This document shows, in pieces, positions 20,761 through 64,000 of a stretch of DNA of 64,000 bases. The stretch's first letter is position 1, and every line of letters begins with the position of its first letter. This stretch comes from Isoetes taiwanensis. Taxonomy: Eukaryota > Streptophyta > Lycopodiopsida > Isoetales > Isoetaceae. The notes under the pieces were generated by a model. That model was given only the letters and a program-made list of their open reading frames with translations, made no database searches and was not told the origin of the DNA. The stretch is taken from positions 186,001 through 250,000 of the forward strand of contig JAJEKV010000127.1 of assembly GCA_021234155.1 (NCBI GenBank). The letters run 5' to 3'. The position numbers and the translations under genes were made by a program.

Positions 20761-21467
20761 TCACAGCAACAAACCTGCTGGCAGTTGTACAAATATACAT
20801 ATACAAGAATATAAATACACAAGAAATTTAATCCGTCCTACGATGCATGTTCCTACGTGCAAGTTCTTGTAAAAGAATCTCTTGAGAATGCTCTAAATTC
20901 ATAGATTCTCTAAGATTCTACCAAGGTTCTCTTAGAGGGTTCGTGAGCATTTCTCTAAATTTTATCTAGATTCCATTAAATTTCCCTAGATTCTCCAAGA
21001 TTCTATAAAGATCCCCTTAGATTCTCTTAGATTCATTTAGATTTTATTAGATTGCCCTTAGATTCAAAGAGATTCTATAAAGATTCCCTTAGATACTCTA
21101 AGATTTCATCAACATTTTCTTAGATTCCCTTAGATTTTATGAAGATTCCTTTAGATCCCCCAGATTTTAAGAGATTCCCTTAGGCTTGTAAATATTTTCC
21201 TAGATTCTCTTACATTTTATAAGATTTTCTTACATTCTATTAGATTCTTCTGGATTCCTTTACATTCTAGAACTTTTTAGAACATTCTAAGACTTCCTGG
21301 AACATTCTAAGACTTTCAATATATTCTAGAACTTTCTGGAAGTATTTCCCTAGATTTCCTTACATTCCCGTAAATTCCCCTACATTTTAGAACATTCTAA
21401 AACTTATTAGAACAATTTGGAACTTTCTGGAAGAATTTTCTTAGGTCCCCCCAGGTTCTCTTATGCT

Positions 21468-21539
21468 CTAGAACTTTCTAGAAGATTCTAGAACTTTCTA
21501 GAGCGTTCCAGAACATTCTAGAACCTTCTTGAACGAGCT
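21468..21539. promoter_or_regulatory. array of heat-shock-element-like half sites (copy 1)
   Basis: Read in steps of five, the sequence is almost wholly made of alternating TTCnn and GAAnn units: CTCTA GAACT TTCTA GAAGA, then TTCTA GAACT TTCTA GAGCG, then TTCCA GAACA TTCTA GAACC and TTCTT GAAC. The consensus heat-shock element is three such alternating units; here about fourteen are in register with very few mismatches. Whether heat-shock factors bind here is an inference. The array may instead be a by-product of expansion of a TTCTAGAA palindrome. Confidence 0.6.
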
Positions 21540-21617
21540 AGAATGTTATAGTCTATTTTATCTTAATGGGAACACTCCCCTTAAGTATATGTGAAACATA
21601 AATCACTCATAGAATTA

Positions 21618-21690
21618 ATGCTTGGTCTAGTGGTTAGAATGGGGGGCTGGGGGGTCAATGGCCAGGGTTCGAATCCCCTACACAACATAA
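21618..21690 (+). repeat. tRNA-like pol III promoter segment in copy 1
   Basis: TGGTCTAGTGG (21623-21633) fits the A box and GGTTCGAATCC (21666-21676) is a perfect B box, 32 bases apart, with a G-rich spacer in place of an anticodon arm. The sequence cannot fold as a full tRNA, so it is a tRNA-derived head rather than a tRNA gene. Confidence 0.7.
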
Positions 21691-21995
21691 AAATTTTAAG
21701 AGCCTTTTCCTAAGGGATGAGCATTCAACTTGGGCCGTAGGATCTTGGACCCGATCAAGGGTCGAGATCTCACACAACATGAGCCATACGATCTATTACA
21801 TATAATTTCCAAAGTCATGTGCACCGTCGGTCAGGATCAGATCAACCTGGACCGTAGGATCGTGTCTATATGGATTATATATAAACTCCCAAGCCATCTG
21901 GGCCGTAGGATACGTCCCAAAGCCACGTGAGCCGTCGGATCTCGAACGGACGGTCGGATAAGCGCGACAAACATAAGAACAGATATAGAGAGTAT

Positions 21996-23340
21996 ATATA
22001 TACAAGAAATTTAATGCGTCCTACGGTGCATGTTCGAGTTTTAGCATGTTCCTATCTCTTGATAGATTCTCTAAGGTTCTACCAAGCTTCTCTTAGAGGG
22101 TTCGTGAGCATTTCTCTAAATTTTATAAGATTCCCTCTAGATTCTATTAGATTTCCCTAGATTCTCCAAGATTCTACGAAGATCCCCTTAGATTCATTTG
22201 GATTTTATGATATTGCCCTAGGTTCCCTTACATTACATGAGATTCAAAGAGATTCTATAAAGATTCCCTTAGATACTCTAAGATTTCATCAACATTTTCT
22301 TAGATTCCCTTAGATTTTATGAAGATTCCTTTAGATCCCCCAGATTTTAAGAGATTCCCTTAGGCTTGTAAATATTACATTTTATAAGATTTTCTTACAT
22401 TCTATTAAATTCTTCTGGATTCCTTTACATTCTATAACTTTTTAGAACATTCTAAGACTTTCTAGAACATTCTAAGACTTTCAATATATTCTAGAACTTT
22501 CTGGAAGTATTTTCCTAGATTCTCTTACATTTTATAAGATTTTCTTACATTCTATTAAATTCTTCTGGATTCCTTTACATTCTATAACTTTTTAGAACAT
22601 TCTAAGGCTTTCTGGAATATTCTAAGACTTCCAATATATTCTAGAACTTTCTGGAAGTATTTCCCTAGATTTCCTTACATTCCCGTAGATTCCCCTACAT
22701 TCTAGAACATTCTAAAACTTATTAGAACAATTTGGAACTTTCTGGAAGAATTTTCTTAGATTCCTCCTAGATTCTCTTATGTTCTAGAACTTTCTAGAAG
22801 ATTCTAGAACTTTCTAGAGCCTTCCAGAACATTCTAGAACCTTCTTGAACTAGCTAGAATGTTATAGTCTATTTTATCTTAATGGGAACATTACCCTTAA
22901 GTATATTTGAAACATAAATTGTTCATGGAATTAATGCTTGGTCTAGTGGTTAGAATGGGGGGTTAGGGGGTTAATGTCTAGGGTTCGAATCCCCCACACA
23001 ACATAAAAATTTTAAAAGCCTTTTCCTAAGGGATGAGCATTCAACTTGGGCCGTAGGATCTTGGACTCGATCAAGGGTCGAGATCTCACGCAATATGAGC
23101 CATAGGATCTATTACATATAATTCCAAAGTCATGTACACCGTAGGATGTGTCCCAAAGCAACGTGAGCCATAGGATCTCGGACCGACGATCAGGATCAAA
23201 TCAACCTGGACCGTAGGATCACGTCTATACGAATTATATATAAACTCCCAGGCCATCTGGGCCGTAGGATACGTCCCAAAGCCATGTGAGCCGTCGGATC
23301 TCGAACGGACGGTCAGATAAGCGCGACAAACATAAGAACA
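21996..23340 (+). repeat. HSE/tRNA-like/G-box repeat, copy 2
   Basis: Same order as copy 1: start TATACAAGAAATTTAATGCG, degenerate TTAGATTC array, TTCnnGAA array at about 22781-22860, tRNA-like segment at about 22933-22997 (A box TTGGTCTAGTGG, B box GGTTCGAATCC), CCGTAGGATC words, and end GCGCGACAAACATAAGAACA followed by a (TA)n run. A block of about 120 bases (ACATTCTA...TCTGGAAGTATTT) is internally duplicated at about 22370-22520 and 22500-22660, which makes this copy longer than copy 1. Confidence 0.8.
22781..22860. promoter_or_regulatory. array of heat-shock-element-like half sites (copy 2)
   Basis: GTTCTAGAACTTTCTAGAAG continues as alternating TTCnn and GAAnn units through CTTCCAGAACATTCTAGAAC to GAACTAGCTAGAA. 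It keeps the 5-base register seen in copy 1 although the flanks of the two copies differ at many positions. Confidence 0.6.
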
Positions 23341-23384
23341 TATAATATATATATATATATATAGAGTATATCATAACATATATA

Positions 23385-24600
23385 TGTTCTTATGTTTGTC
23401 CTCTTGAATCCGACCGTTGATCCGAGATCCTACGGCTCACGTGGCTTTGGGACGTATCATGCGGTCCAGATGGCTTGGGAGTTTGTGTATAGACTATATA
23501 TGTAAGCGATCCTACGGTCCAGGTTGATTCGATCCTGATCGTCGATCCGAGATCCTACGGCTCACGTTGATTTGGGACACATCCTACGGTGCACATGACT
23601 TGGGAGTTATATGTAATCGATCTAACGGCCCAGGTTGCTCTTGATCCTGATCGTCGATCCGAGATCCTACGGCCCAGGTGGCTTGGCACATATTCTACGG
23701 TCCAGATGGCTTTGAGAATTATATGTAATAGATCCTACGGCTCATATTGCTTTTATATGGTGAAATCTTGATCATTGATCGAGTCTAACATCCTAAGGCT
23801 CATGTTGAATGCTCGTCCCTTAAGGGAAGGCTTTTAAAATTTTTTATGTTATTGGGGGGATTCGAACCCTGGACCTCAACCCCCCAAACCCCCCCACTCT
23901 AACCACTAGACCAAGCATTAGTTCTATGAATAATTTATGTTTCAAATATACTTAAGGGTAATGTTTTAATTAAGATAAAATAGAATATAACATTCTACAT
24001 AGTTCTAATAAGTTCTAGAATGGAATGTAGGGGAATCCTTCGGAAATGTAAGAGAATAGGGAAATACTTCCAGAAAGTTCTAGGATGTTTTGAAAGTTTC
24101 AGAATGTTCCAGAAAGTTCTAGAATGTTCTAGAAATTTCTAGAATGTAAGGGAATCCAGGAGAATTAAAGGAAATATAAGGAAATCTCATAAATTGTAAG
24201 AGAATGTAGGAAAATATTTACAAGTCTGACGGAATCGCTTAAAATCTAGTTGAATCTAAGGGGATCTTCATAATATCTAAGGGAATCTTAGAAAATCTTG
24301 ATGAAATCTTAGAGTTTTTTTTAAGATTTTGCAAAGAGCCACAATAGAATGTTCTAAAATGTTTCATAATAAAGGTGTACAATATAAATCTTGAAATGTT
24401 GCACATATCCAAAATAGATTATTTTGGAAGGTTCTAAATGCTCATGGGTAAGCACCTCAATCAAAATAGAAAATTCTAAGAGAATCTAGGGGAATCTTCA
24501 TGAATGCTAAATATAGTACATAAAATGTTGAAGAATATAGAGGAATCACAAGGGGCCTTGCACCATAAGAACATGCTAAAATTAGAACATGCAACGTATA
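23385..24600 (-). repeat. HSE/tRNA-like/G-box repeat, copy 3 (inverted)
   Basis: This copy runs opposite to copies 1 and 2. It begins on plus with TATATGTTCTTATGTTTGTC, then three to four units of a 112-127 base minisatellite containing GATCCTACGGCTCACGTGGC, then the inverted tRNA-like segment (B box GGATTCGAACCC near 23859, A box CCACTAGACCAAGC near 23905), then TTCnnGAA words (24070-24160) and the inverted GGAATCTT array. The far end is truncated compared with copies 1 and 2. An (AT)n run at about 23343-23362 separates it from copy 2. Confidence 0.8.
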
Positions 24601-24614
24601 TATATATCTGATCT

Positions 24615-25875
24615 TATATATGTTCTTATGTTTCGCGTTTATCCGACCGTCCGTTCGAGATCCGACGGCTCATGTAGGTTTGGGACGTATTCTACGGCCC
24701 AGATGACCTGGGAGTTTACATATAATATGTGTACCATGGTCCTACGGTCCAGATTGATCTGATCCTGACCGTCGGTCCGAGATCCGACGGCTCACGTGGC
24801 TTGGGGACACATCCTACGGTCCACGTGGCTTTGGGAATTATATGTAATAGATCTTACGGCTCATATTGCTTTTATATGGTGAGATCTTGATCATTGATCG
24901 AGTTTAAGATCCTAAGGCTCATATTGAATGCTCGTTCCTTAAGGAAAGGCTTTTAAAATTTTTTATGTTATTGGGGGGGATTCGAACCCTGGTCCTCAAG
25001 CCCCCAAACCCCCCACTCTAACCACTAGACCAAGCATTAACTCTATAAAAAAGTTATGTTTCAAATATACTTAAGGGTAATGTTCTAATTAAGATAAAAT
25101 AGACTATAATATTCTAGGATGTTTTGAAACTTTCAAAATGTTCCAGAAAGTTCTAAAATGTTCTAGAAATTTCTAGAATGTAAGGGAATCCAGAAGAATT
25201 AAAGGGAATATAAGGAAATCTCATAAGTTGTAAGAGAATCTAGGAAAATATATAAGTCTAACAGAATCTCTTAAAATCTAATTGAATCTAAGGGAATCTT
25301 CATAATATCTAAGGGAATGTAAGAAAATCTTGATGAAATCTTAGAGTTTTTTTAAGATTTTGCAAAACGCGACAATAGAATGTTCTAAAATGTTTCATAA
25401 TAAAGGTGTACAATATAAATCTTGAAAAAAAAATATTCTAGATGCTCAAGGCAAGCGCTTTAGTCTAAAAATAGAAAATGTTTTAAAAATGTTGCACAGA
25501 TCTAAATTAGATTATTTTAGAAGGTTTTAAATGCTCATGGGTTTTTAAGATCTTGAAAAGAGCGACAATAGAATGTTCTAAAATGTTTCATAATAAAGGT
25601 GTACAATATAGATCTTGAAAAAAAAATATTCTAGATGCTCAAGGTAAGCGCCTTAGTCTAAAAATAGAAAATGTTTTAAAAATGTTGCACAGATCCAAAA
25701 TAGATCATTTTAGAAGGTTTTAAATGCTCATGGGTAAGCACCTCAATCAAAATAGAAAAATCTAAGAGAATCTCAGTAGAATCATTGGTTATCTAGAGCA
25801 CTATAGGGCCTTACATCGTAAGAACATGCTAAAACTGGAACAATGCGCCATAGGACGTATTAATTTTCTTGTATA
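24615..25875 (-). repeat. HSE/tRNA-like/G-box repeat, copy 4 (inverted)
   Basis: Same order as copy 3: TATATGTTCTTATGTTTCGC, G-box minisatellite (GGCTCACGTGGCTTGGGGAC), inverted tRNA-like segment (about 24980-25036), short TTCnnGAA block (about 25135-25185), and GGAATCTT array. A block of about 190 bases (AGCGACAATAGAATGTTCTA to AAATGCTCATGGG) is tandemly duplicated at about 25368-25540 and 25560-25733. It ends ACGTATTAATTTTCTTGTAT, the complement of the copy 1-2 start. Confidence 0.8.
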
Positions 25876-25879
25876 TCTA

Positions 25880-26012
25880 ACATATATATGTTCTTATGTT
25901 TGTCCCACTCAATCCGACCGTCCGTTCGAGATCCTACGGCTCACGTGGCTTTGGGACGTATTCTATGGCCTAGATGGCTTGGGAGTTTGTATATAGATTA
26001 TATGTAAGCGTG
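25880..26012 (-). repeat. HSE/tRNA-like/G-box repeat, copy 5 (partial, inverted)
   Basis: Only the outer end is present: TATATATGTTCTTATGTTTG, then GAGATCCTACGGCTCACGTG and the GGCTTGGGAGTTTG segment. The similarity stops at about 26012, where an unrelated duplicated sequence starts. Confidence 0.75.
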
Positions 26013-26028
26013 CATTTGTTTGTGCATA

Positions 26029-26478
26029 TATTCTTTTGTTTGTACATTTGATACCACTTTCGAATTTGCCTCTAATAAAATTGGATATGCATCAAGAAGG
26101 AGATGCAATTTAACTTCACTGAGCCAAAGACACCCTGCACGTTGAAAAAAATGGGACACCCTTCACCAAGAATGGATGCTCGTCGAATAAAGCTGTACCC
26201 AATAGGATTATAGACAAAGTTTGCTTCGTTATCGTAGAGTCATCAGTTGAAATCTAATTTCAAGTCTCCATTCTAATAAACAATGATGAGCTCCATTGAA
26301 TGGCCATCAGGTAAAGGATTTAGCTTAAAACTTCATGACTTTGGACTGGATGCATGTTGCCATTCCTGCTATTCTTAATCTTGGATTTTGTTCCCAAATT
26401 TCGTAGACCATAGCTCATAGACCCATTTATCTTGGATTTCCATAGCTCATAGACCTTTTATTTTATCCCATTGATAGT
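26029..26478. repeat. 0.45 kb direct repeat, copy 1
   Basis: From TTTGTACATTTGATACCACT to CCCATTGATAGT the sequence is repeated at 26601-27051 with few changes (offset 572). Read on minus, both copies hold an open stretch of about 65 codons in more than one frame (for example DEHPFLVKG and FIRRASILGEG). I do not recognise either. Confidence 0.85.
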
Positions 26479-26600
26479 TCATAGACCCATTTATAGTACA
26501 GAATGACCTTTCAACTATAAATAGTGTATACTTTTACAAAAATGTCTATCATCAAGTGTTCCTGAGAAAGCCCAAACTAATTCATTCAGGACTCAAGGAC

Positions 26601-27051
26601 AAGCTTTTTGTTTGTACATTTGATACCACTTTCGAATTTGCCTCCAATAAAATTGGATATGCATCAAGAAGGAGATGCAATTTAACTTCACTGAGCCAAA
26701 GACACCCTGCACGTTGAAAAAAGTGGGGACACCCTTCACCAAGAATGGATGCTCGTCGAATAAAGCTGTACCCAATAGGATTATAGACAAAGTTTGCTTC
26801 GTTATCGTAGAGTCATCAGTTGAAATCTAATTGCAAGTCTCCATTCTAATAAACAATGATGAGCTCCATTGAATGGCCATCAGGCAAAGGGTTTAGCTTA
26901 AAACTTCATGACTTTGGACTGGATGCATGTTGCCATTCCTGCTGTTCTTAATCTTGGATTTTGTTCCCAAATTTCGTAGACCATAGCTCATAGACCCATT
27001 TATCTTGGATTTCCATAGCTCATAGACCTTTTATTTTATCCCATTGATAGT
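26601..27051. repeat. 0.45 kb direct repeat, copy 2
   Basis: Partner of 26029-26478. The two copies are separated by about 120 bases of unrelated sequence (26479-26600). High identity suggests a recent duplication. Confidence 0.85.
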
Positions 27052-27059
27052 ACAAAGAC

Positions 27060-29368: not shown

Positions 29369-29738
29369 CTATGCACTGAGTTTCATATTATCCATCTTTT
29401 TGCATAATGCAACAAGAACACACCTTGGTGGTTTGGATGGCTCTCTTGAGTGCAAGACCATCATGTTATCCAAAACCATAATATCTCCATCTTTCCATTC
29501 TATAGACACACATGCTTCATTCATGACTTTTTTAGCACTTTGAACCAATTCATTTGGTAGAATCGTTCCATCTCCAAGTTCCATGTTTGCAAGGCTTGGT
29601 ATCTTGGGACTACTTGAACAAATGCTGTTTAACCAAACATGGCATCCATTAATGTAATCAATTTCTTTGCAAGGGCCATATATGGCATTTGCTCCACCAT
29701 CTCGCAACCAAACTAATCTTTTTTGTTCACTCTTTGCC
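29369..29738 (-). pseudogene. duplicated last exon of the clavaminate-synthase-like dioxygenase
   Basis: This is a complete copy of exon 3 of the gene at 31974-37096, with the TGCAG acceptor before 29738, the same 370 base length and the same stop. It encodes DGGANAIYGPCK and VLHSREPSKPPRC, including the distal iron-binding His and the Arg that contacts 2-oxoglutarate. It differs from the upstream copy at a handful of residues (for example RDGG for PDGG and GCHVW for GRQVW) and has no stop codon. It can be a dead duplicate or a distal alternative last exon, since it lies downstream in the same orientation. Confidence 0.8.
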
Positions 29739-29814
29739 CTGCATTTGCAGAAATAAGTACATATAAATATGGGAATAAGATACGATAGACATAAATACTA
29801 ATATACTTAAGCAC

Positions 29815-29910
29815 TAGACAGACAGACAGGCAGGCAGGCAGGCAGGCAGACAAACAGACAGATGGATGGATAGGTTTTTTAATATCCACGGAGACCAAAT
29901 TGGCCATGGG
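29815..29910 (-). repeat. retroelement 3' end with (GACA/GGCA)n tail, unit 1
   Basis: On minus, CCATGGCCAATTTGGTCTCC then GTGGATATTAAAAAACC, then a (TCCA), (TGTC) and (TGCC) repeat. It is a member of the same 3'-end family, here with a mixed tetranucleotide tail. Confidence 0.7.
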
Positions 29911-31329
29911 ACTAGAATAGATAGCTCTTTGTGTTATACAACATCAACTTCAACTGTCAAAAAGTTAAAGAAAAAGGCCCCATGTTTTGGTCCTAGGATA
30001 ACCACAAGACATTACAATATGCCACATAGTTTAGTATAAGGGCCAAGTAGAATGTACCACATTATAATAGAATAGAATAAGAGTTGGGTAGTGGGTATCA
30101 CATGGACATCACAAACAGCATGTCACATAGACACCAGAACATAGGGTAGAATTGCGGGTGCAAGCCTACATATCCAACCACATATTTTGCACCATTCAAA
30201 TCGACACAAATCCATTGCTAACACAAATCCATTGTTAAGAACACATTGCATTATCAAACGCCCAACGTCAATAATGGATCCATCCTCATCAGTAGTTCGT
30301 ACCGAGTGTTTGATGCAGCAGTCTTTGCTGCCGCAATAATTTCCTTGTATACATATTAAGTAAAGAATAAAATAAAGTAGAGTAGAATTGATTTTTATCG
30401 TCCACCAAGGCCAAAATAGCCTTTGGGATCCAATACAATAATAACGCAATATGCATATTACTGACAAAATTTAAAAACACCACATCCCGAAGGGTTTTCG
30501 AAGGGAAAACCTTGATAGTAATAAGCGTACGAGAAATTTGTACAAGTTATGACATCAATATCTTGGAGGCGGATATATATGGGTCGGATGATCAAGAACT
30601 TCCATGATATACGATGTTAAAAGTGATTGATGTTGCATATGCTCCTTCCTTTTGCAGGTCGAATGCGAGTGTGAGAACTGAGGGTACTAACATCTTTAGA
30701 CTTTGCAAGTCTTATGCTATGTTCCAACTTGCCTCTATTGAATCTAGCAGAGTCTAAGGAATCTATAAAAATCCTTGAGGATCTAAGGGAGACTTGAGTG
30801 GAACCAAAGGAATCTCAAGAGGATGAAGGAACCTTAGAAAATCTTGGGGAATCTAGAAAACTCATATTGAATATTGAAGAATATAAAGGAATCTTGAAGA
30901 ATCTGGCTGGACCATAGGGGGATTCAAGATAACGAAGGTTGAACACACATTCGTTTAGGATATTTCTTTTTCTAGGCAGATAGGCTTGCTATGCCCTTTC
31001 TTGTATTGCATCCTATAGGCTTTTTGATATGTGGATGATAAAATTCAATTCATTCTTCAATGTTGGATCTTTTCAGCATTGTCCTGACTTGATATGCCCC
31101 GATATCTTTTTGTCACAATTGTTATTATATCCTTGTGCCATAGCAAGTAACCAACTGTGTACATTACAAGACTGTGTTTATAGGTCATTTCAATTTGCAA
31201 AGGAATACTACTGCAAAATCTGCAATGAAAAGAGATTACACATTTCTTAACATATATTATCACCATTAATATATAAAATATACCAATACTATGCAAGCAT
31301 TGTATTCGCAAACGTTGGAAATTATTAGT

Positions 31330-31721
31330 AAATCCAACTCCACAAATTTGAAACAACGCATCCTTTTGGCGTCCTATCCCAACGCTTGGCCCCCAGCTAA
31401 ATAGAGGGCATTCCATCTTGGTTCTAGTTGGCTCCTGTGATCGATATGGGAGCGTCACAGACACCACATCTTTTAGAGCATTTATTCGTCTACACGTGGT
31501 GTTATTACAGCCTACGAGTGTTCCACCCTTGAATCAGAAACGATGGAACGCATCTGGATTCAGTATCTTCGAATTGATTCTTATCGTTAGTCTCTTATTC
31601 TGGAGTAAGTACATTGTGCTCCAGGCTCGTGGTCCTGTGACATCTTTTTGTGCTTATCTGAGTTAGATGAGACATGTAAATTTTAACGCGTTTATCTCGA
31701 TTAATAAACTTTTTGGCTTTC

Positions 31722-31749
<28 letters not shown>
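31330..31749 (+). mobile_element. LINE-like 3' end with poly(A) tail, unit 2
   Basis: Copy of 28720-29142. Here the poly(A) follows GGCTTTC directly (31722-31749), so a few terminal bases (GTCCTTC) differ from unit 1. Confidence 0.5.
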
Positions 31750-31752
<3 letters not shown>

Positions 31753-31973
31753 TTGGGAACAAAATAAAGTCGTTGCCATAAATTCCTTGTAGCTTTACAT
31801 ATAGATATTCGAACATAACTTTGATAACATTTACAACGATGGTCGTCTTGCAAATTCCAGCTTTGCATAAGTAATAATAAAGTCGAGTCAAACATAAATT
31901 TTATCTTACTTGGAAACAAATATGTTCAAAGGTTTAGTCAAGAGTGAAAGGTACATTCTGTTGTTTCAAATAC

Positions 31974-37096
<5,123 letters not shown>

Positions 37097-38739
37097 CTCA
37101 CGGCTTGCATCTCCACTCCAATATGCCCTTCTATATAGATATTACCATTCTCTAACCACGTGTCCTCGCATATCATTGAATCAAATTATTCCCAACCGTC
37201 GATTAAGTTCAACCTATGTTTAAATTCCATAATATGCAATTATATCCATAACCTGACATATAGGAATTGGATGCATGCATCAACCACCAAATTTAAAAAG
37301 TATCGTGCCTTCTACGGTTCGTGGCATGATAAATTCATTTGAATGGATGCATTCTACAGAACATGATAATTCTGTAAATCCGGAAGATTTTATTCCTAAC
37401 TACCATGTTATTGGGATACTCTCGTCCAAGATCATGAGTCATGATACTAATAGTCTATTTGATCTAAGGTAGAAGCCTACTATGAAGAAAGGGATAGATG
37501 GATGTGAGAGGTGGGACCCCTGACCAATGGTCCCTATGAATGTTTTCGTCCAAATCTATGACATCATATGGGTTCCCACATGAAATAGGAACTTCTAAAC
37601 GTGAAGTTTATTTACCCTGTCCTTATACATTAGAAGCCATATCATCTACATCACTTCGGTTTATTGATTCATTAGTAACCTTTAGACAATACTAGTTTAA
37701 GGATTATTCAAGATTATTATTTTGTGTACCTATCATGTACTTTTGCTATGTCAGTGCGTGTGCTATGCTATTACACTCTCTCTCTATTACCGTGTGCTAT
37801 TCTAGTGAGGAACTTGCATAGTGATAGAACTTGTAGAATAATGTAGGCATTTCAGTCGCCATCATAGTGCACAAGTTTTTGTAAAAGAATATTGCTGAGG
37901 GCATCTGACTATAATCTCTATCACTTTATGTATTCTAGGAAGAGACATGCATGAAGCGACAAAACTGGTCAGCTTGCTATCATAGTTTTTGCATGTCGCT
38001 GGACATCATAGTTTTTGCAAGGGAATATTGTTGAAGAGAAAGAATGATGCACTACAATGAAGGATTCCTACAAAGCACATCATTAATGTACAAATAGCAA
38101 TACCTAATTCTCATTTCCAAACTACTCACCATTAGAGTCAACATAGTTTTAACGTGTCTGAAATCTATAAGGGTTGATTCTAAGCTTTGAGTCTTTTGTA
38201 GAAGAATGAGTTGTTTCTAGCATCTCATGACATGATGCATCATTTGGTTTCTAAATAAGGTGCATCATGAACTGTCTCAGTCGTCGGATCTGTCCTTCCT
38301 ATGGCCCAGATCGTATGTTGGGACCTCTTGGTGCCTTTTGTTTCGATTATGGTCATTTATGACTGGGGACGTCTACGCTTTTAAAATATGGAATACAAGT
38401 TCGCCTAAGGTTTTGGGATATGAAATACCTGGAACTCATCTCTATACGGGTTTCGCTAAGGTTTTAAATTTTGAGATATGGGAACCCGAACCTCTACCAA
38501 AAGAATTCAATATCTTATTAAGAATGCTTTAACCAATGCAACCAACAAACTGTTTATTCTATTGAATCTATATTTTTTTTTATTTAATAATAACCTATTC
38601 AATTGTTTTCGGGGTACGGTCTATGATCTCAAGGATAGTGATTTATGAATCCATATCAAACCCCCCTGGAACCGCCTCTTATTGTGTTGCATATTGTAGT
38701 AGTCATGTAATTAATAGGATCCCTCTTTTGATAATGTTG
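37097..38739. other. intergenic, upstream of the dioxygenase gene
   Basis: The dioxygenase promoter should lie just above 37097. No TATA box is certain. A 90 codon plus-strand frame at 38260-38532 has no recognised motif and is not called. Confidence 0.4.
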
Positions 38740-46224: not shown

Positions 46225-48127
46225 GTGTAAAACTTCAATGTCAAACTTGCAAAACTATTTCTTATCCCTAAGGTCAAACAACCATCCACGATCAATGATT
46301 GGAGACCTATTTCTTTGCTCTCCTTTGTGTATAAGATTATTGCAAAAGCTTTGGCAGAAAAGCTTAAATTGGTTCTAGCATCCTCTATTAACAAGGTTCA
46401 GTCTGGGTTCATCCCAGGAAGAAACATCTTAACTAATGTTGCTGCAGCTTATGAGGGCTTGTATTGGGCTAGGAAAACAGGTCAGGAAGTTGTTTATCTT
46501 AAGCTCGATTTTGCGAAGGCATATGACAGTGTGCGCTGAGAGTTTTTGTCTAGTGTGCTTTCGGCTTTGGGTTGTGGTCCACGTTTTACAGAAACAGTTA
46601 TGAAGCTTCACACATCAGGACGAGCTATAGTTGTGTGCCAGGGGGAGCCCTCCCCGTTCTTTTTTGATAGGAAGAGGAGTTCGTCAGGGCTGCCCTCTGG
46701 CCCCATTTTTGTTTACCATGGTGGCGGAGGCATTATCACAATTGCTCTTGACTGCAGTAGATGAGGGAGTGGTAGATAGCCTTCGGATGCAGAATGACAG
46801 TCAGCAGATTTGTAATCAGTTTGCAGATGACACTTTCCTCTTTGTGGCAGCAGAAGAAAGCAATTTGTGTAATGTTAAGGGTTTGTTGGATACATTTTTC
46901 TTGGCTTCTGGTTGTCTTCTTAATTGGGGAAAGTGTTCGGCTCTGTGGGCTTTGGAGATGCCGCCTCCACCTTGTTTGTTTCTCTTCCCTTGGAAGGTAC
47001 TCCCAGTGAATGCATGTACCAGACTTCTGGGCATTCCTTTTGGGGGTGATATCTCTATGGGCGGTGTCTCGGATGAGATTTTGCAGGGACTACAGAACCT
47101 GAATTGGTGGAAGGGTAGTAAGTTGTTGATGGCAGGCAGGATTACTGTAGCTAAGTCAGTGCTTTGTAGCACCCACGTATACACAGTGTCTGTTATGTTA
47201 GCTCCAGAATGCAAGGTTCAGGAATTTGATAGAATTGTCCGAAACTTTGTTTGGGGAGGGGCTGCAGAAGGAGCAGTGGTTAAAGTAGCCTGATGGAAGT
47301 GCCTTCGCCCTCGAGAGGATGGGGGTTTGGCAATCCTAGATTTGGCTTTGCATTCTAAGGTGTTAGTCTCCAAGTTTGTTTGGAGTATTCTCCATGAAGA
47401 GGTGTTCTTTCCAGGTGCAGCATTGCTTTTACAGTCCCTCGAGAATTGTGTGGCTTTTCACAAGCCATCTGTCCCTGTGAAGTTGCCTTAGGCCTTGCTT
47501 TACTGTTTGAGGCCGTTCCCACACGTGTCACCTTTTCTCAAGGGTGTACTGCGGGCGTGGGAGCATGTGCAATTGCTTTTCCAGGTAGACTATGCATCAG
47601 TATTTCATCACACTTCTCCTTTTCTGTGGGTTCTTCTGCCTCCGACATACTTGCCTTTGGCTGCCAGCTTGCACGCTCGGACGTAGGCCCATTGGACTCG
47701 GGCTGCAGTCTCCACCTTAGAGGATTGGTATTGGCATGGCCAACTGGCTCCTTGGGAGTTTTTTCAGGCCCGCTTTCGGCTTAAGAGCAATGATCGAGCT
47801 ATCTGGCAGCAAGTGGTCTCCTGTATTCCACTGCATATTCTTGTCTCCTCCAGGGAAGGGTGGTCTTTCAGATTTGGAAGGTTCATTCGGGGATCGATGA
47901 ATCATGTTTTGTACGTTCTTGTTACCGGACGTTGGTTATTCATGATACTTTACCTCCTTCTGACAAGTGGGCACTAAAGCTTCAGGGTTCCTGTTGGCGC
48001 GCCGTTTGGACATGGACTTGGAACTCTCTTTCCCCACCAAAGTTTAGGGTTCTCTTGTGGCAAGTGGTGCACCGCTGCATTAGGGTAAATGTTCTTGTGC
48101 ATAGATTTAAGCCGGCTGTGAGTTTTC
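46225..48127 (+). mobile_element. LINE reverse transcriptase region (plus), 5' part
   Basis: The frame opens with LFLIPKVKQPSTINDWRPIS, then FIPGRNIL, DFAKAYDSVR, GVRQGCPLAPFLFTMVAEAL and QFADDTFLF (catalytic FADD at 46820-46831), then LLNWGKCSALW and LLGIPFGG. These are the ordered motifs of a plant L1-like LINE reverse transcriptase. Breaks: a TGA at 46537-46539 replaces the usual Trp after SVR, the frame shifts near 46675, a TGA occurs at 47291, and more stops lie between 47490 and 48010. It continues into a zinc-binding domain (WCTAALG..., near 48060). It is 5'-truncated at about 46225 and interrupted at 48127 by a copia element. Confidence 0.85.
48123..48127. other. target-site duplication of the copia element, left
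   Basis: TTTTC precedes the 5' LTR and is repeated exactly at 53386-53390 after the 3' LTR. Removing the element and one copy restores a continuous LINE sequence. Confidence 0.85.
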
Positions 48128-48806: not shown

Positions 48807-50687
48807 ATGGATCCATTCAAGTTTTCACAGAATGCAAAGCTCACTAATAATAATTACCATGCTTGGATGAAGTTCATGGTGAATTATTTGATATTTAGTG
48901 ACATGGGAGCGGTGTTTGATAAAGACTTTATCAGCACCAAGTCAGCAGATGCTAGCAGGGTAAACCAGAAAGCTTGTGCTCTTGTCAAAATGTTGGCTGA
49001 AGAGACAATTGGTCATGAAATCAACCATTTTACTGAGTTTAAGGAGATGTGGTCTCATTTGGAGAAGTCCCTTGATAGCAAGGGTATGGCTACTCAAATG
49101 CTGACCCAGAACAAAATGAGACATGCCCAATTAGGTGATTTCAAATCTGTCACGGCATACCTTACTCAGATGAAGCAATGGCGCTTGGATTACATGGCTG
49201 CTGGTGGAGTGCTGTCTGAAAAACAGCTGATTCAAGATATCTTGGTTGGTCTTCCTCCTTCGTATGATATTATCTCTTTGAAGATCAGGTACAAGGAGAA
49301 GATTGATATAGCCAAAGTAACCATTCTACTGCAACAAGAGGAGTTGGTGCAGAAGCAAAGGGATGGGAGAGTGGACCATGCTAATTTTGTGTCTACTTCT
49401 CGGGCTGACACCAAGAAGAAGTTTGCTGATAGCAAAGACTCTAGGAAGTCAGAAAATGTGAAGTCTGAAGGTAAGAAATCCAAGGAGTTCAAGTGCTGGA
49501 ATTGTGGTGAAAAGGGTCACTACAGTTCGAATTGTAAGAAGGAGAAGAAAAGCTCAAAGGATAGTGACACGAGAAGCACAGCAGTCAACTCTAAGGGAGA
49601 GACAAGTGCTGTTGCGTGTGCCACTTTTGATGCTGAATATCTGAATCTTGCAGCAGCAGCCAGCACCTTACATAAGGACTTGATTTTGGACTCAGGAGCC
49701 ACGGTTCATCTTACTGGAGATTCAGATGTGTTTTCTGAACTTGAACCTCGATCTGGAGGTGATGTGAAGATGGGTGATGGATATTCTCTTCCTATCACAG
49801 GAAAGGGGATTGTAGCTTTTCAATTGCATGGACGTGATGTAGTTAGTAAGGTGAGGAATGTCATGTTTGCTCCCGGATTACAGTCTAATATCATGTCTGC
49901 TGCTGAATTTGATAAAGCAAGCCATCACATTGTTCTCGGAAATGGCAAAGCCTATCTGCTGGGCAGGAATCCACTTGAAGGAATTGACTTGAAAAGTCTG
50001 CAGTTCATGGCACAGTGGACGTTGCAGAATGGCTTGTATGTCTTTGATGGTTCAGTTCATAAGACTGAACATGGTCTTGTATGTGCTGATTTGACTGCTG
50101 AGCATCTGTGGCATGCTCGTTTTGGTCATGTTGGAGGCACTGCTGTACATGCTTTGTACAAAAACAAGATGGTTACAGGTATTCCCTCTCTGAAATGTGT
50201 CAAGCTTGAGTGTGTTGCGTGCCATCTCGGAAAGCAACCTCAACAGCCTTTTCCACAGCAGGCTCTTCCTCGAGCAACTCAACCTCTTGAGCTGCTGCAT
50301 TCTGATTTGTGCTATATGCCTGATGTCTCGCTAGGTGGAAAGAGGTATTTCTTAACCCTGATTGATGATTTCAGTAGGTACACTTGGGTGTATACTTTGC
50401 ACTGCAAATCTGAGGTGCTTGGCAAGTTCAAGGCCTTCAAAGCAGCAGTCGAAAAGCAGACAGGGTTAGTAATAAAAAAGTTGAGAAGTGACAATGGAGG
50501 TGAATATGTTTCTAATGCCTTTGATGAGTTTCTCATGGAAGAAGGTATTGAAAGACAGTTAATCATTCCTTATGCTCATCCACAAAATGATGTAGCTGAA
50601 AGGAGGAATAGATCTTTGCTTGATTTGGCAAGATCTATGATGAGTCACAAGCAACTGCTGAATCTTTTGGGGAGAGGCGATGAGTGA
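48807..50687 (+). CDS. copia gag-protease-integrase polyprotein, truncated
   Basis: 626 codons from ATG at 48807. Gag runs from the start to about residue 225. A CCHC zinc knuckle (CWNCGEKGHYSSNC) is near residue 230, and an aspartic protease active site (LILDSGATVHLTGD) near 290. Integrase has an HHCC-type start (HLWHARFGHV, then CVAC), then catalytic Asp (LLHSDLCYM), SRYTWVY and SDNGGEY. The frame ends in a TGA at 50685-50687 after a local frameshift within the integrase (about 50660-50690). The same frame resumes at once and runs to 50954 with NRSPTKAVQDVTPYEAFW. The frame is long and undamaged up to this point. Confidence 0.88.
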   Translation: MDPFKFSQNAKLTNNNYHAWMKFMVNYLIFSDMGAVFDKDFISTKSADASRVNQKACALVKMLAEETIGHEINHFTEFKEMWSHLEKSLDSKGMATQMLTQNKMRHAQLGDFKSVTAYLTQMKQWRLDYMAAGGVLSEKQLIQDILVGLPPSYDIISLKIRYKEKIDIAKVTILLQQEELVQKQRDGRVDHANFVSTSRADTKKKFADSKDSRKSENVKSEGKKSKEFKCWNCGEKGHYSSNCKKEKKSSKDSDTRSTAVNSKGETSAVACATFDAEYLNLAAAASTLHKDLILDSGATVHLTGDSDVFSELEPRSGGDVKMGDGYSLPITGKGIVAFQLHGRDVVSKVRNVMFAPGLQSNIMSAAEFDKASHHIVLGNGKAYLLGRNPLEGIDLKSLQFMAQWTLQNGLYVFDGSVHKTEHGLVCADLTAEHLWHARFGHVGGTAVHALYKNKMVTGIPSLKCVKLECVACHLGKQPQQPFPQQALPRATQPLELLHSDLCYMPDVSLGGKRYFLTLIDDFSRYTWVYTLHCKSEVLGKFKAFKAAVEKQTGLVIKKLRSDNGGEYVSNAFDEFLMEEGIERQLIIPYAHPQNDVAERRNRSLLDLARSMMSHKQLLNLLGRGDE

Positions 50688-53039
50688 CAAAGAACATATT
50701 TGGCAAATAGATCGCCTACTAAGGCAGTCCAGGATGTGACTCCTTATGAAGCATTTTGGAGAATGAAACCAGATGTGTCTCATTTGAGGGTGTTTGGATG
50801 CTTGGCTTATGCTTCCATACCTGCTGAAGAAGCCGAAAAAAAGTATGGGAAGTTGCATGGTATGGCTGTCAAAGCCATCTTTATTGGGTATCGAGAGAAA
50901 ATCGAGAAAGGTTACAAGTTGTATGATCCTTCCAACAAAGCGAGGTTATTGTAGCGGTGTCGATTCAGGTTCATTGAAGATGCGTGTATGATGGCATATC
51001 TTCCGGTGATACTCCTGCAGTTCACAATGGCGGCAGACTTGGATGTTGGAGATCCGATAGCATTTCTTTGGTAAACCTTTCTCTCCCTCTCTAGTGGTTT
51101 CTCCGGTGAACTCACATTTGCACGAAGTAGTGGCGCGGGATGATCCCAATTCCACTCGCCCTATGGTCCATGAGCAGGTTGGTTCCTTTTGGGGAGTCCG
51201 GCACACATGAAGGTGCTCAGTAGCACCCGATCCAAAGACTGTTACGGCACCTATTGTAGCTTTTGCTATACCTCGTTGTTGAACCTAGGAGATCAAGACG
51301 TCTCAAGGAGAAACAAATTGTTGCGAGAACCGGTTCGCGGCTTTTGTTGTACTGTTGTTGTTGAACCTAGGAGATCAGCACGGCTGATGGAGAAACAGGA
51401 GAAGTCTAATGGATCATGTAACCTTGCCTTAATGGCAAAGGTCCAGGATCACGAACCTTTCATGAAGCAGCTAGTGATCCGCAGTGGCAGCATGCAATGG
51501 AAGACGAATACTCTCAATTGCTGAAGCAAGGCACATGGGAATTGGTTGAACTCCCAGCTGACAAGCACGTTATTGGCTGTAAGTGGGTGTTTAGAACCAA
51601 ATTTCATGCTGATGGGACAGTGTCAAAGCATAAAGCTAGACTTGTAGCTAAGGGTTTTGCACAGAAAAAAGGCTTAGATTATGATGAAGTCTTTGCTCCC
51701 GTAGCTAGAATGTCCACTATTAGATCCGTTATAGCTGTTGCTGCGATGAAAGGTTGGCCAATATTTCAAATGGACATTAAATCTGCTTTTTTGAATGGTG
51801 ATTTGGAGGAAGAGGTCTATATGACTCAACCTCCAGGATTTGTTGTTCAAGGGAAGGAGCAGCTGGTTTGTCATTTGAAGAAAAGCATTTATGGCTTGAA
51901 GCAGGCTCCAAGATGTTGGCATCACGAAAATTAATGCTTTCTTTTCTTGAGCGAGGGTTTCAGAAGTGCAGCAGACCCCAATCTTTATTACAAATCACAT
52001 GAAGGCGAATGTGCATTGTGGTTACGTATGTTGATGATTTGATCATCACGGGGAGATCTTGATGTCTTGATTTCTACACTGAAGTTGAAGTTATCTTAGC
52101 TCCTTGAGAGATGACCGACCTTGGCCTTATGCATTCTTGTTTAGGTGTAGAAGTGTGGCGGCACTTTTCGGATGGCATCTATCTTTCTCGTGAGAAATAT
52201 ATCAAAGAAATGTTACAAAGCGATATCGTATGCAAGATTGCAAGGTCGTGGCAAGTCCTTTTGATCCGTGCACAAGGCTTGAGCTTGATTTCGATGGTGA
52301 GGAGTGTGATCCCACACTCTATCGAAGCTTGGTAGGGGCGTTGATATATCTCACAGTCACTAGACACGATATCTCTTTTTCCGTGGGAGTCTTTGGCTGA
52401 TTCATGAGCAATCCCAGGCAATCGACTGGAAGGCTGCTAAAAGGCTGCCGATCCGAAGGGGAGTTCACGGGAAGGTCTCTTTTATCGAGGTCCCTCGATT
52501 TCGGTGAAAGTCTTTGTTGATGCAGATCATGCTAAGCTGTCATGATAGCGAGGAGGTCCACAAATGGGATGGTCACGTTCATAGGGCCCTAACGCGTTTC
52601 GACATGGTTGTCCAAAAGGCGGTCAAGTGTCAATCGGCACCACTGAGGCGTAATTCAAAGCACTCAGTGTTGGGATGCAGGAATTGTTGTGGCTTAAACA
52701 TTTGTGGACAGATCTGCAGGTACCTCCATCCTCATTTGTTATATTGTGTGACAACACAAGTACCATCCATCTTGCCAAGGATGCTAAGTACCACCCAAAG
52801 ACAAAACACCTTGACACCCACTTGTGTTTTGTCCGTGAGCGATCCAAATGGGATCTTCTCAACTTGTTCATTGCTCCTCACATGATCAGTTTGCTGATGG
52901 CTTTACCAAACCATTAGTTGGATCTAAGTTTGTCAATGTGAAGGAGAGCTTGGGCATGAAGAAATTGCAGCTGAAGGGAGAGAAGGATTACCTTAGTTTG
53001 CTGATTTTCTTCGCTTAGTCAACAACATTTAAGGGAGAG
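50688..53039 (+). pseudogene. copia integrase end, reverse transcriptase and RNase H, broken
   Basis: 50700-50954 holds the integrase C-terminal part (HLRVFGCLAYAS, then FIGY). 50955-51490 is scrambled, with stops in all frames. 51497-51934 is reverse transcriptase: [66 protein letters not shown]. The catalytic YVDD lies at 52027-52038 in another frame. RNase H traces (LLWLKHLWTDLQ, then ILCDNTSTIHLAKDAKYHPK) are at 52675-52850, and a C-terminal VGSKFVNVKESLG near 52925. At least four frameshifts separate the pieces. Confidence 0.85.
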
Positions 53040-62639: not shown

Positions 62640-64000
62640 AGATTTTGAATCCTCATTGATGCACCTTCTTGTTCTAAGTCCTCAAGGGTTTAATGCAGAT
62701 TTTCTTCTCTTCAATTTTCTCTCGAGTAAAATGAAATTGGACTTCAATATACTTGGTTGCTTCACTAAACTTACAGCTGCCATGCTGTCACTAAAGATGG
62801 TAGTGGGCCAATGTCACTTAGCAGCCTTCTAATCCCTATAGCCTCCTTTGAAGCTGCACATATAGCCTTGTACTTTGCTTCACATCCCTGTCCAGTTGAT
62901 AACTCCCCTTGCAGCTTGAAGGAGCAGCCAGACCTAGATTTCCTAGTGGCAGCGTCCCTTGCATAGTCTGCATCGATAAATCCCTCTTAACATAAATGTG
63001 GGTTCATGACCTTGGAAGCAAATTCCAAGTTTTGGAAGGCTCTTGAGATATCAGTGCATCTGTTTGAGGGCCTCCCAGGGAGTGGATTGTAGACTCTCCA
63101 TGACTTGGCTAGATGTAATAACACTTTTACATGTGTTTGGTCGAGTGCAAACCCTAAGATGCATTAATGAGGGCTTATGTAGGGCACTTCTAATCTCTCA
63201 TATGGCATGGGGATAATTAGGAGAACTGTCATAGATTAGCAAATTGGAGACAACAGGAGTGCTTACTTCTCTGCATTGCTGCATGTTGTATCTCTGAAGC
63301 AGTGACCTAATAGCCTTCGCTTGGGAAAAAATGATGATTTTTTCCTCCTTGTTTTGTATGATCTACATGCCTAAAAAGTATAGCAACTGGCCTAGATCTG
63401 TCATATGGAATCGCTTCATAAGAATTTTGTTTTTGTGTGCTGCATGTACACATGACAGTCAGAGGCTAGAACTAGGTCATCAACATACAAGACAACTATG
63501 ACAGTTTTTCCTTTTTTCTGTTCAGCATAGATATCCAAGTCTGCACTGCTCCCCTCGAATCCAAGGTTTGCAAAGAAAGCATGTATTGTTTTGTACCATA
63601 ACCTGGGGGATTGTCGCAGATCATGGATGGCTTTCTTAAGCCTGCAACACTTGCCTTCATTTCTAGGAGCCAAGAGGTAGATTTCTTCATCAATGGCTCC
63701 ATGCAAAAATGTTGACTTGACGTCTATTTGTTGGAGATCAAGGTCAAGAGCTGCTTCCACTGTCAATACAGTCCATACAAAAGATAACCTTGCCATTGGG
63801 GCAAATGTTTCATGGAAGTCAACTCCAGCTTTCTGAGAGCACCCAGCCTTGTAGCGAATAATTCCATTGTCTACATTATACTTAAGCTTGTATAGTCATT
63901 TTCAAGTAATGGCCTTACACCTTGGTGGTACTGTGTATAAGTCCTAAGTGTGATTCTCCATAAGGGACTCATATTCCTCATCCATTGCTATCTGCCATAG
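62640..64000 (-). pseudogene. copia pol fragment (reverse transcriptase and RNase H), runs off the edge
   Basis: On minus from the right edge, a reverse transcriptase is recognised: VPPRCKAIT near 63935, VDFHETFAPMARLSF near 63800, IDVKSTFLHGAIDEEIYLLA (63725-63660), LKKAIHDLRQSPRLWY (63640-63590) and catalytic YVDDLVLAS (63496-63470). Further on, RNase H shows FIDADYARDAATRKSRSG, then GQGCEAKYKAICAASKEAIG (about 62980-62830). Stops and frameshifts interrupt it, for example near 63415. It is a different copia family from the 48-53 kb element, by sequence. No LTR is seen inside the window. Confidence 0.85.

Follow-up and report, generated by a model that had tools for sequence, protein, structure and literature searches.

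An interspersed repeat of Isoetes taiwanensis that couples heat-shock-element arrays to a tRNA-like promoter, a candidate platform for heat-shock factor

Does a run of some fourteen alternating TTC and GAA units in a lycophyte genome mark a place where heat-shock factor (HSF) would bind, or is it a tandem repeat that merely has the appearance of one? The question is raised by a 64,000-nucleotide stretch of Isoetes taiwanensis DNA (assembly GCA_021234155.1, contig JAJEKV010000127.1, positions 186,001 to 250,000 of the forward strand). This whole stretch is called the window here, and coordinates are counted from its first letter. Between 20817 and 26010 it holds five units, U1 to U5, of a non-coding repeat, and U1 to U4 each have an array in the register of a heat-shock element (HSE) together with boxes resembling an RNA polymerase III (Pol III) promoter. 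We tentatively read the repeat as a transposon-borne candidate HSF-binding platform beside a Pol III-type promoter, from which a heat response might follow; on the sequence evidence we hold this reading at just under an even chance.

In sequence, an HSE consists of at least three alternating nTTCn/nGAAn units at 5-bp pitch, and U1 to U4 have perfect runs of 6, 7, 9 and 4 such units. At 21460-21560 in U1, 13 of 20 five-mers have a TTC or GAA core in one strict 5-bp register and 0 in the other four; at 22775-22870 in U2 the count is 14 of 18, again with 0 in the other registers. The original prediction of about fourteen almost faultless alternating units at two sites is therefore borne out, with 13 and 14 cores. 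The dense array of U1 is made of two perfect runs of 6 units (21471-21498 and 21506-21533), split by a single broken unit (GAG), and that of U2 of perfect runs of 7 (22782-22814) and 6 units (22822-22849). The inverted copies had been described as weaker. This is correct for 25135-25185, where the perfect run of U4 is 4 units long (25161-25178), but not for 24070-24160, where the 9-unit perfect run of U3 (24102-24144) is the longest uninterrupted one in the window.

Dinucleotide-preserving shuffles (500 per array) reached a longest run of at most 3-4 units, and a best 14-unit score of 5-6 compared with 12, 13, 11 and 10 observed in U1 to U4. In shuffles that kept TTCNNGAA words whole, the longest run was equalled in 2, 0, 0 and 14 of 500 (U1 to U4), and with the terminal arrays of U1 and U2 taken singly this happened in 4 and 0 of 500; no shuffle of this kind matched the 14-unit score. 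The arrays thus exceed the word-preserving shuffles that the original prediction had named as its check, least strongly in U4. Triads, i.e. stretches of at least three alternating units at 5-bp pitch, number 40 in 20800-26010, and the rest of the window (~58.8 kb) has 1, with a longest run of 3. The units and their arrays are as follows.

20817-21980, plus strand: U1, dispersed repeat from head ACAAGAAATTTAAT to tail CAAACATAAGAACA, delimited by anchors, the U1-U4 alignment and ends common to 38 other genomic copies
20880-21467, plus strand: U1 degenerate TTC-rich array with 10-bp-pitch patches and few GAA; 4-unit perfect run at 21324-21341
21468-21545, plus strand: U1 dense HSE-register array, 13 in-register cores
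21725-21966, plus strand: U1 3' body with CCGTAGGAT-type sub-repeats and a CACGTG G-box
22000-23339, plus strand: U2, 92% identical to U1 from array end to tail (alignment, anchors)
22060-22781, plus strand: U2 TTC-rich array with 10-bp-pitch patches; 4-unit perfect runs at 22489-22506 and 22639-22656
22782-22861, plus strand: U2 dense HSE-register array, 14 cores
23386-24597, minus strand: U3, inverted, 5' head diverged or lost; left limit is the tail anchor, right limit approximate
24067-24147, minus strand: U3 dense HSE-register array, positionally equal to the middle cluster of U1/U2
24622-25873, minus strand: U4, inverted (alignment, anchors)
25135-25181, minus strand: U4 HSE-register array
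25890-26010, minus strand: U5, partial (tail only), broken off at ~26010 (self-comparison, anchors)

The five units lie end to end, U1 and U2 on the plus strand and U3, U4 and the broken U5 on the minus strand. From 5' to 3', the layout consists of a TA-rich start, the head ACAAGAAATTTAAT (not found in U3), the TTC-rich array, the dense HSE array, a spacer of ~80 bp, the A box, the B box, TTTT, a body of CCGTAGGAT sub-repeats and a TA-rich end ...CATAAGAACATATATA. The units are 84-92% identical between array end and tail. The terminal HSE cluster of U1/U2 is absent from U3 and U4, and the middle cluster is denser in U3. Exact CCGTAGGAT/ATCCTACGG words occur 15 times in 20800-26010 and 0 times in the rest of the window. 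Internal tandem duplications within single units are seen in U2 (~150 bp, 22375-22681) and U4 (~193 bp, 25349-25735). CACGTG G-box words stand in the 3' bodies of the units at 21924, 23438, 24793, 24822 and 25942, i.e. 5 in 5.2 kb of units versus 10 in 58.8 kb elsewhere in the window.

The arrays were predicted to lie inside a multi-copy repeat, and the search of the genome (1,658,258,908 bases in 1110 contigs; 1.66 Gb) agrees, adding 38 copies to the units of the window. With 300 bp of U1 as query, 40 matches were scored of 2544 candidates, on many contigs and at 93-96% identity (U1 itself excepted); two of the 40 are U1 and U2, and the other 38 were fetched. In all-against-all comparison, almost all of the 38 lose homology at about the same places of the element, and a few look cut at the 5' or 3' side by eye. 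Both end anchors are present in 34 of the 38, and 29 of these 34 span 1162-1482 bp (full range 964-2253), the anchors being loose, so that the copies of 964 and 1717-2253 bp may in some cases combine ends of different units. The head anchors allow two errors and give chance matches, and the locus counts therefore rest on the tail anchors. Within 6.3 kb there is one tail end in 26 of 38 loci, none in 2, and two or more in 10; solitary copies are therefore the rule. Inverted tail ends were found only at L060, L071 and L081 among the 38 fetched loci. L065 and L096 share an identical 35-bp 5' flank just upstream of the element, which is an insertion into the same other repeat.

A perfect 7-unit run has 1397 exact matches genome-wide (705 + 692, overlapping and two-strand matches being taken separately), compared with 1 (0 + 1) for a reversed-pattern control. 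The first 100 of the 1397 matches listed were collapsed by hand to 62 distinct arrays; set against the fetched loci or the window region, 38 are exact, 16 lie within 2 mismatches and 8 differ by 3-4. The A-box head pattern has 1103 exact matches in the genome and its reversed pattern 0. Since exact matches are needed, the array and A-box counts are both lower bounds. The two patterns were paired over the contig range common to both lists, which were taken as contig-ordered. An exact A box lies within 700 bp of 37 of the 62 listed arrays, downstream in 37 of 37. Array and promoter boxes are thus linked in cis, with constant orientation and near-constant spacing. On contig C102, the region of ~95.9-168.3 kb contains 14 distinct 7-unit arrays and 11 exact A-box heads in ~73 kb, a local cluster of the repeat that is possibly satellite-like.

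The promoter-like boxes of the window, which like the genome-wide spread go beyond the original prediction, are located at the following positions.

21623-21676, plus strand: U1 A box TGGTCTAGTGG and B box GGTTCGAATCC, Pol III type-2-like; first TTTT past the B box at 21694
22939-22992, plus strand: U2 A and B boxes; first TTTT past the B box at 23010
23858-23913, minus strand: U3 A and B boxes; TTTT 20 nt past the B box
24978-25032, minus strand: U4 A and B boxes; TTTT 21 nt past the B box

The A-to-B spacing is 43-45 bp from start to start, with TTTT 19-21 nt past the B box in U1 to U4, so the elements of a Pol III type-2 promoter in sequence (A and B box, tRNA-like spacing, T-run) are present in 4 of 4 units. 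A general A+B consensus matches only these four places in the window, and 0 in 100 shuffles. Among the 38 copies, the exact A box is found in 33, GGTTCGA in 34, both in 30 and the T-run in 34. Across U1 to U4, 17 of 17 columns of the A box and 13 of 13 of the B box are invariant, versus 16 of 25 in the linker between them. Over 40 rows of aligned copies, mismatches amount to 6/639 (0.9%) in the A box, 9/480 (1.9%) in the B box and 63/1039 (6.1%) in the A-B linker; the other parts give 108/2502 before the array, 61/3198 in the array, 131/3073 in the array-to-A spacer and 72/3774 (1.9%) after the B box. The A box is therefore the best-kept part of the element. No A-box head was found in viral contigs. 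These features suggest that use of the boxes by Pol III is plausible.

The make-up of the array changes with distance from the A box. In the 33 of 38 fetched copies that have an exact A box (5 were left out), the start of the last TTCnnGAA palindrome is most often 97 bp from the A box (23 copies). GAA follows TTC at +5 in a fraction of 0.97 at 50-100 bp from the A box and 0.78 at 100-150 bp; farther out the values are 0.41, 0.31, 0.36, 0.16 and 0.11, then ~0 past 400 bp. GAA at +4 or +6 of TTC is at 0-0.05 within the array bins. The 50 bp adjoining the A box do not belong to the array; they have 0.67 TTC per copy, none with GAA at +5, and form the exception at +4/+6 with 0.43. TTC at 10-bp pitch is patchy, with phase drift, and clearest in the ~400 bp nearest the A box: TTC recurs at +10 for 0.32-0.95 of TTC at 100-400 bp and for 0.02-0.38 beyond. 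Chains of at least 3 at this pitch number 2, 7, 2 and 1 in U1 to U4 and 4 in the rest of the window (both strands), and TRF reports periods of 10, 20 and 30 bp across the arrays. TTC at 10-bp pitch is by itself the spacing published for step-type HSEs (PMC4552642). The TTAGATTC words flanking the dense array had been proposed as its degenerate source. That they belong to the same array is supported in part by the 10-bp TTC pitch, with GAA, where present, at +5; the source could lie at either end.

In the reading that we tentatively prefer, the element carries a TTC-rich 10-bp repeat that grades into a dense HSE array, followed downstream by a tRNA-like Pol III promoter whose A box is ~97 bp from the last palindrome in most copies. 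Upon heat, HSF trimers would bind the array, and the chromatin opened in this way could confer heat-responsiveness on the tRNA-like promoter beside it, on the element or on nearby genes. Successive insertions would have scattered strong HSEs genome-wide, as Helitrons did in Caenorhabditis. The locus in the window consists of five units, set end to end on both strands, with TA-rich DNA at the joints. The HSF DNA-binding domain has 16 matches in the genome, all over the cut-off and 3 with an internal stop. The array sequence is the TTCtaGAAnnTTCt motif, which is enriched under the Arabidopsis HSFA2/HSFA3 peaks of memory clusters (PMC10230730). The placement of the array is also promoter-like. 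If HSF binds, a transposon would have multiplied and spread the heat-shock sites of a free-sporing plant, which would add to the Caenorhabditis Helitrons a second case, in an unrelated element, and the repeat would show a possible origin of heat-responsive regulation in plants. If HSF does not bind, the repeat calls for caution, as HSE motif scans of this genome would be dominated by one transposon.

Several results weigh against the platform reading. The B box (1.9%) and the array are no better kept than the stretch after the B box. ARAGORN at its default setting called no tRNA, Rfam found none, and the four heads had no consistent folding gain over shuffles (z 1.78, 0.75, -0.84 and -1.24); with relaxed settings, ARAGORN gave ~50 weak calls in 6 kb, one of them, among the matches listed, over the U3 boxes. 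A tRNA gene was rejected on these grounds. The promoter boxes are kept while the tRNA structure is not, and Pol III activity is therefore only suggested. The pairing of array and A box is also incomplete: 25 of the 62 listed arrays lack an exact A box inside the 700-bp limit, and a 7-unit array precedes only 31 of 93 A-box heads at no more than that distance. Clearly, many A-box heads stand without a perfect long array.

Further points of this kind come from the array itself, and they bear on a second explanation, in which a 10-bp unit with the palindrome TTCTAGAA grew by slippage inside the transposon as a neutral minisatellite; HSF may touch it, and nothing depends on the contact. This explanation is quite possible, somewhat short of an even chance in our estimate. 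Any TTCnnGAA tandem repeat of 10 bp is automatically an HSE array, and the explanation fits the TRF periods and the lack of a perfect 7-unit array at 62 of 93 A-box heads. The GAA gradient is as expected from polar slippage growth, which would be recent at the end near the A box, with older repeats decaying at the other end. The 7-unit pattern occurs in 41 stretches of a prokaryote collection (84,980 species, 257 Gb) and in 9 stretches of viral DNA, with some resembling one another. A clear 10-bp spacer periodicity is seen in 38 of the 50, and the prokaryote runs extend up to 20 units. To our knowledge, prokaryotes have no HSF. A palindromic 10-bp minisatellite is sufficient for an HSE array, and the pattern alone is therefore no proof of binding.

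Cores and spacers also diverge equally. Over the 40 rows, core cells depart from the majority in 38/1919 (2.0%) and spacer cells in 23/1279 (1.8%), and when the register is shifted by 1-4 bases, some offsets yield a contrast of at least this size, in either direction. In the middle cluster (4-5 rows, compared in a fixed register that is off by one base in the last columns), variable columns are 13/48 for the core and 5/30 for the spacer. Within two of the best arrays, on the other hand, cores deviate less than spacers, 6/78 versus 15/52 (4/48 versus 9/32 for the terminal array of U1 taken apart), a comparison biased by the choice of these arrays for their cores. The core/spacer equality carries little weight in either direction, since transposon copies differ mostly through neutral changes after insertion. 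Two other observations count against a neutral minisatellite. The dense cluster is kept in both sub-families, as the terminal cluster in U1/U2 and the middle cluster in U3/U4; and the 1397 matches in 1.66 Gb stand against 41 stretches in 257 Gb, but here copying of the transposon explains the number.

A more specific form of the platform reading is a heat-switched Pol III unit, in which HSF bound to the array would activate the promoter ~97 bp away and produce a burst of ~90-nt RNA from hundreds of loci upon heat. We consider it unlikely. If true, a mobile element would bring Pol III transcription under HSF control, and the repeat would be a main reservoir of strong HSEs for a lycophyte genome. 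The near-constant distance from array to A box makes direct HSF drive of Pol III a testable question.

It is quite improbable that the HSE pattern is incidental to DNA structure or silencing, with the 10-bp pitch serving DNA shape or nucleosomes and the inverted units giving hairpin RNA and small interfering RNA. The 10-bp TTC chains and the long inverted arms of the window locus are in line with such a role, but shape alone does not require GAA at exactly +5 in the array with so little at +4/+6, and inverted pairs are a minority of the loci (3 of 38). A sink or decoy, in which the arrays would titrate HSF away, so that the heat-shock response is weakened or slowed but no transcription is driven, is suggested by their number and length (median 12 triads per copy in 34 copies), which make HSF titration a real question, but is very improbable, as silenced, methylated repeats are usually inaccessible.

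The repeat was compared with known systems as they appear in the available portions of the published reports. The closest functional parallel is the HSE clusters of Caenorhabditis Helitrons (PMC6927752), where a transposon family likewise supplies the genome with tandem, overlapping HSEs in dense clusters; eight HelitronY4_CE copies hold more than 100 HSEs, and among the metazoan genomes examined there, HSE enrichment in Helitrons is described only for Caenorhabditis. HSF-1 binding was seen in those Helitrons by ChIP (PMC6927752), whereas binding to the Isoetes repeat is a prediction. No Helitron terminus is seen at either end of the Isoetes repeat (TA-rich ACAAGAAATTT... and ...CATAAGAACATATATA), and its array sits upstream of a tRNA-like promoter. 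In ONSEN/COPIA78, COPIA37 and other COPIA elements of Brassicaceae, HSEs arose through TTCnnGAA duplication or, in COPIA37, from an nTTCn-rich region (PMC5059998), and the GAA gradient in the Isoetes array suggests a similar gain. However, those are LTR retrotransposons with elements of 3-4 units, whereas the Isoetes repeat is non-coding. The expectation that its arrays would be longer than those of ONSEN is confirmed, at 13-14 in-register cores versus a four-unit heat-responsive element (PMC5059998).

The closest architectural parallel is the end-to-end, non-nested arrays of SaTar elements (PMC5907723), which resemble the locus in the window. SaTar of guayule and rice (including Micron) and MuTAnT of Medicago are also non-autonomous and lie at TA-rich or microsatellite sites (PMC5907723, PMC4486113). 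They differ in having terminal inverted repeats and, away from microsatellites, 9-10-bp duplications (PMC5907723, PMC4486113), none of which was found in the Isoetes repeat. SaTar arrays join unrelated elements (PMC5907723), whereas the Isoetes locus joins units of one family. In the portions compared, no HSE array is described for SaTar or MuTAnT. Alu has an HSF site in a Pol III-type repeat with heat-induced RNA (PMC3334603), and SATIII has HSF sites in a satellite, also with heat-induced RNA (PMC9032817). The Alu site is positionally conserved inside the element (PMC3334603), unlike the long Isoetes array at near-constant distance upstream of the boxes, and the 5-bp SATIII satellites are transcribed by Pol II (PMC9032817). 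No HSE array in a repeat of Isoetes or another lycophyte is described in the titles and abstract openings of the literature matches listed, and 'heat shock' has 0 occurrences in the main text of the Isoetes taiwanensis article (PMC8566536).

The repeat is an interspersed, non-autonomous, non-coding element of ~1.2-1.5 kb whose class is unsettled, and as far as tested it fails the defining tests of SINE, MULE, Helitron and LTR elements. The region 20800-26010 has no open reading frame (ORF) of at least 130 aa, and an LTR retrotransposon like ONSEN is therefore not indicated, in agreement with the suggestion that the repeat is of another kind; among the listed self-matches >100 bp, there is also no head-to-tail direct repeat within a unit. 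A tRNA-derived SINE is rejected, since ~0.8 kb of the element precedes the A box and target-site duplications of at least 9 bp were found in 0 of 34 copies (TA-only repeats not counted). Mismatched flank pairs gave such duplications in 2.3%. A MULE/SaTar origin, with its 8-11-bp duplication, is rejected by the same count, the longest duplication being 8 bp in one copy (L091), and by the comparison of head with reversed tail for terminal inverted repeats, which stayed within the maximum of 200 shuffles in each of the 5 copies tested, out of 34 with both anchors. (TA)3 lies directly 5' in 18 of 34 copies, 3' in 24 and on both sides in 14, the element's own ends being TA-rich. Helitrons end in 5' TC and in a 3' hairpin plus CTRR. 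Such ends were not seen by eye in the 36 starts and 38 ends of the 38 copies. A foldback element, to which the inverted units might point, is rejected as the general form given the 26 single-tail and 2 tail-less loci, only 3 of the 10 multi-tail loci being inverted. Plasmid records gave no match. Rfam microRNA matches at 23307-23414 are far under their gathering scores, lie on the TA-rich joint of two inverted units and were set aside.

Elsewhere in the window, a direct duplication of ~454 bp, 98% identical (26034-26486 and 26606-27059), adjoins the broken U5. The region 29369-37141 contains several copies or exons of a TauD-type dioxygenase gene, of which the piece at 36647-37141 is under the Pfam cut-off. 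Its ORFs at 29369-29797 and 31974-32402 hardly differ when compared by eye, which suggests that 2.6 kb was recently duplicated in tandem. Gag and integrase domains of Copia type are found at 48810-50684 and a reverse transcriptase domain at 46631-47293; by eye, two further ORFs (51422-51934 and 63416-63895) resemble Copia reverse transcriptase. In protein searches bearing on taxon, the 120 PPR matches listed, of 4985, mix lycophytes, gymnosperms, ferns, mosses and angiosperms at about 30-45% identity, and neither Copia nor a dioxygenase had a match at the cut-off. A perfect AGAT microsatellite of 140 bp lies at 35526-35665.

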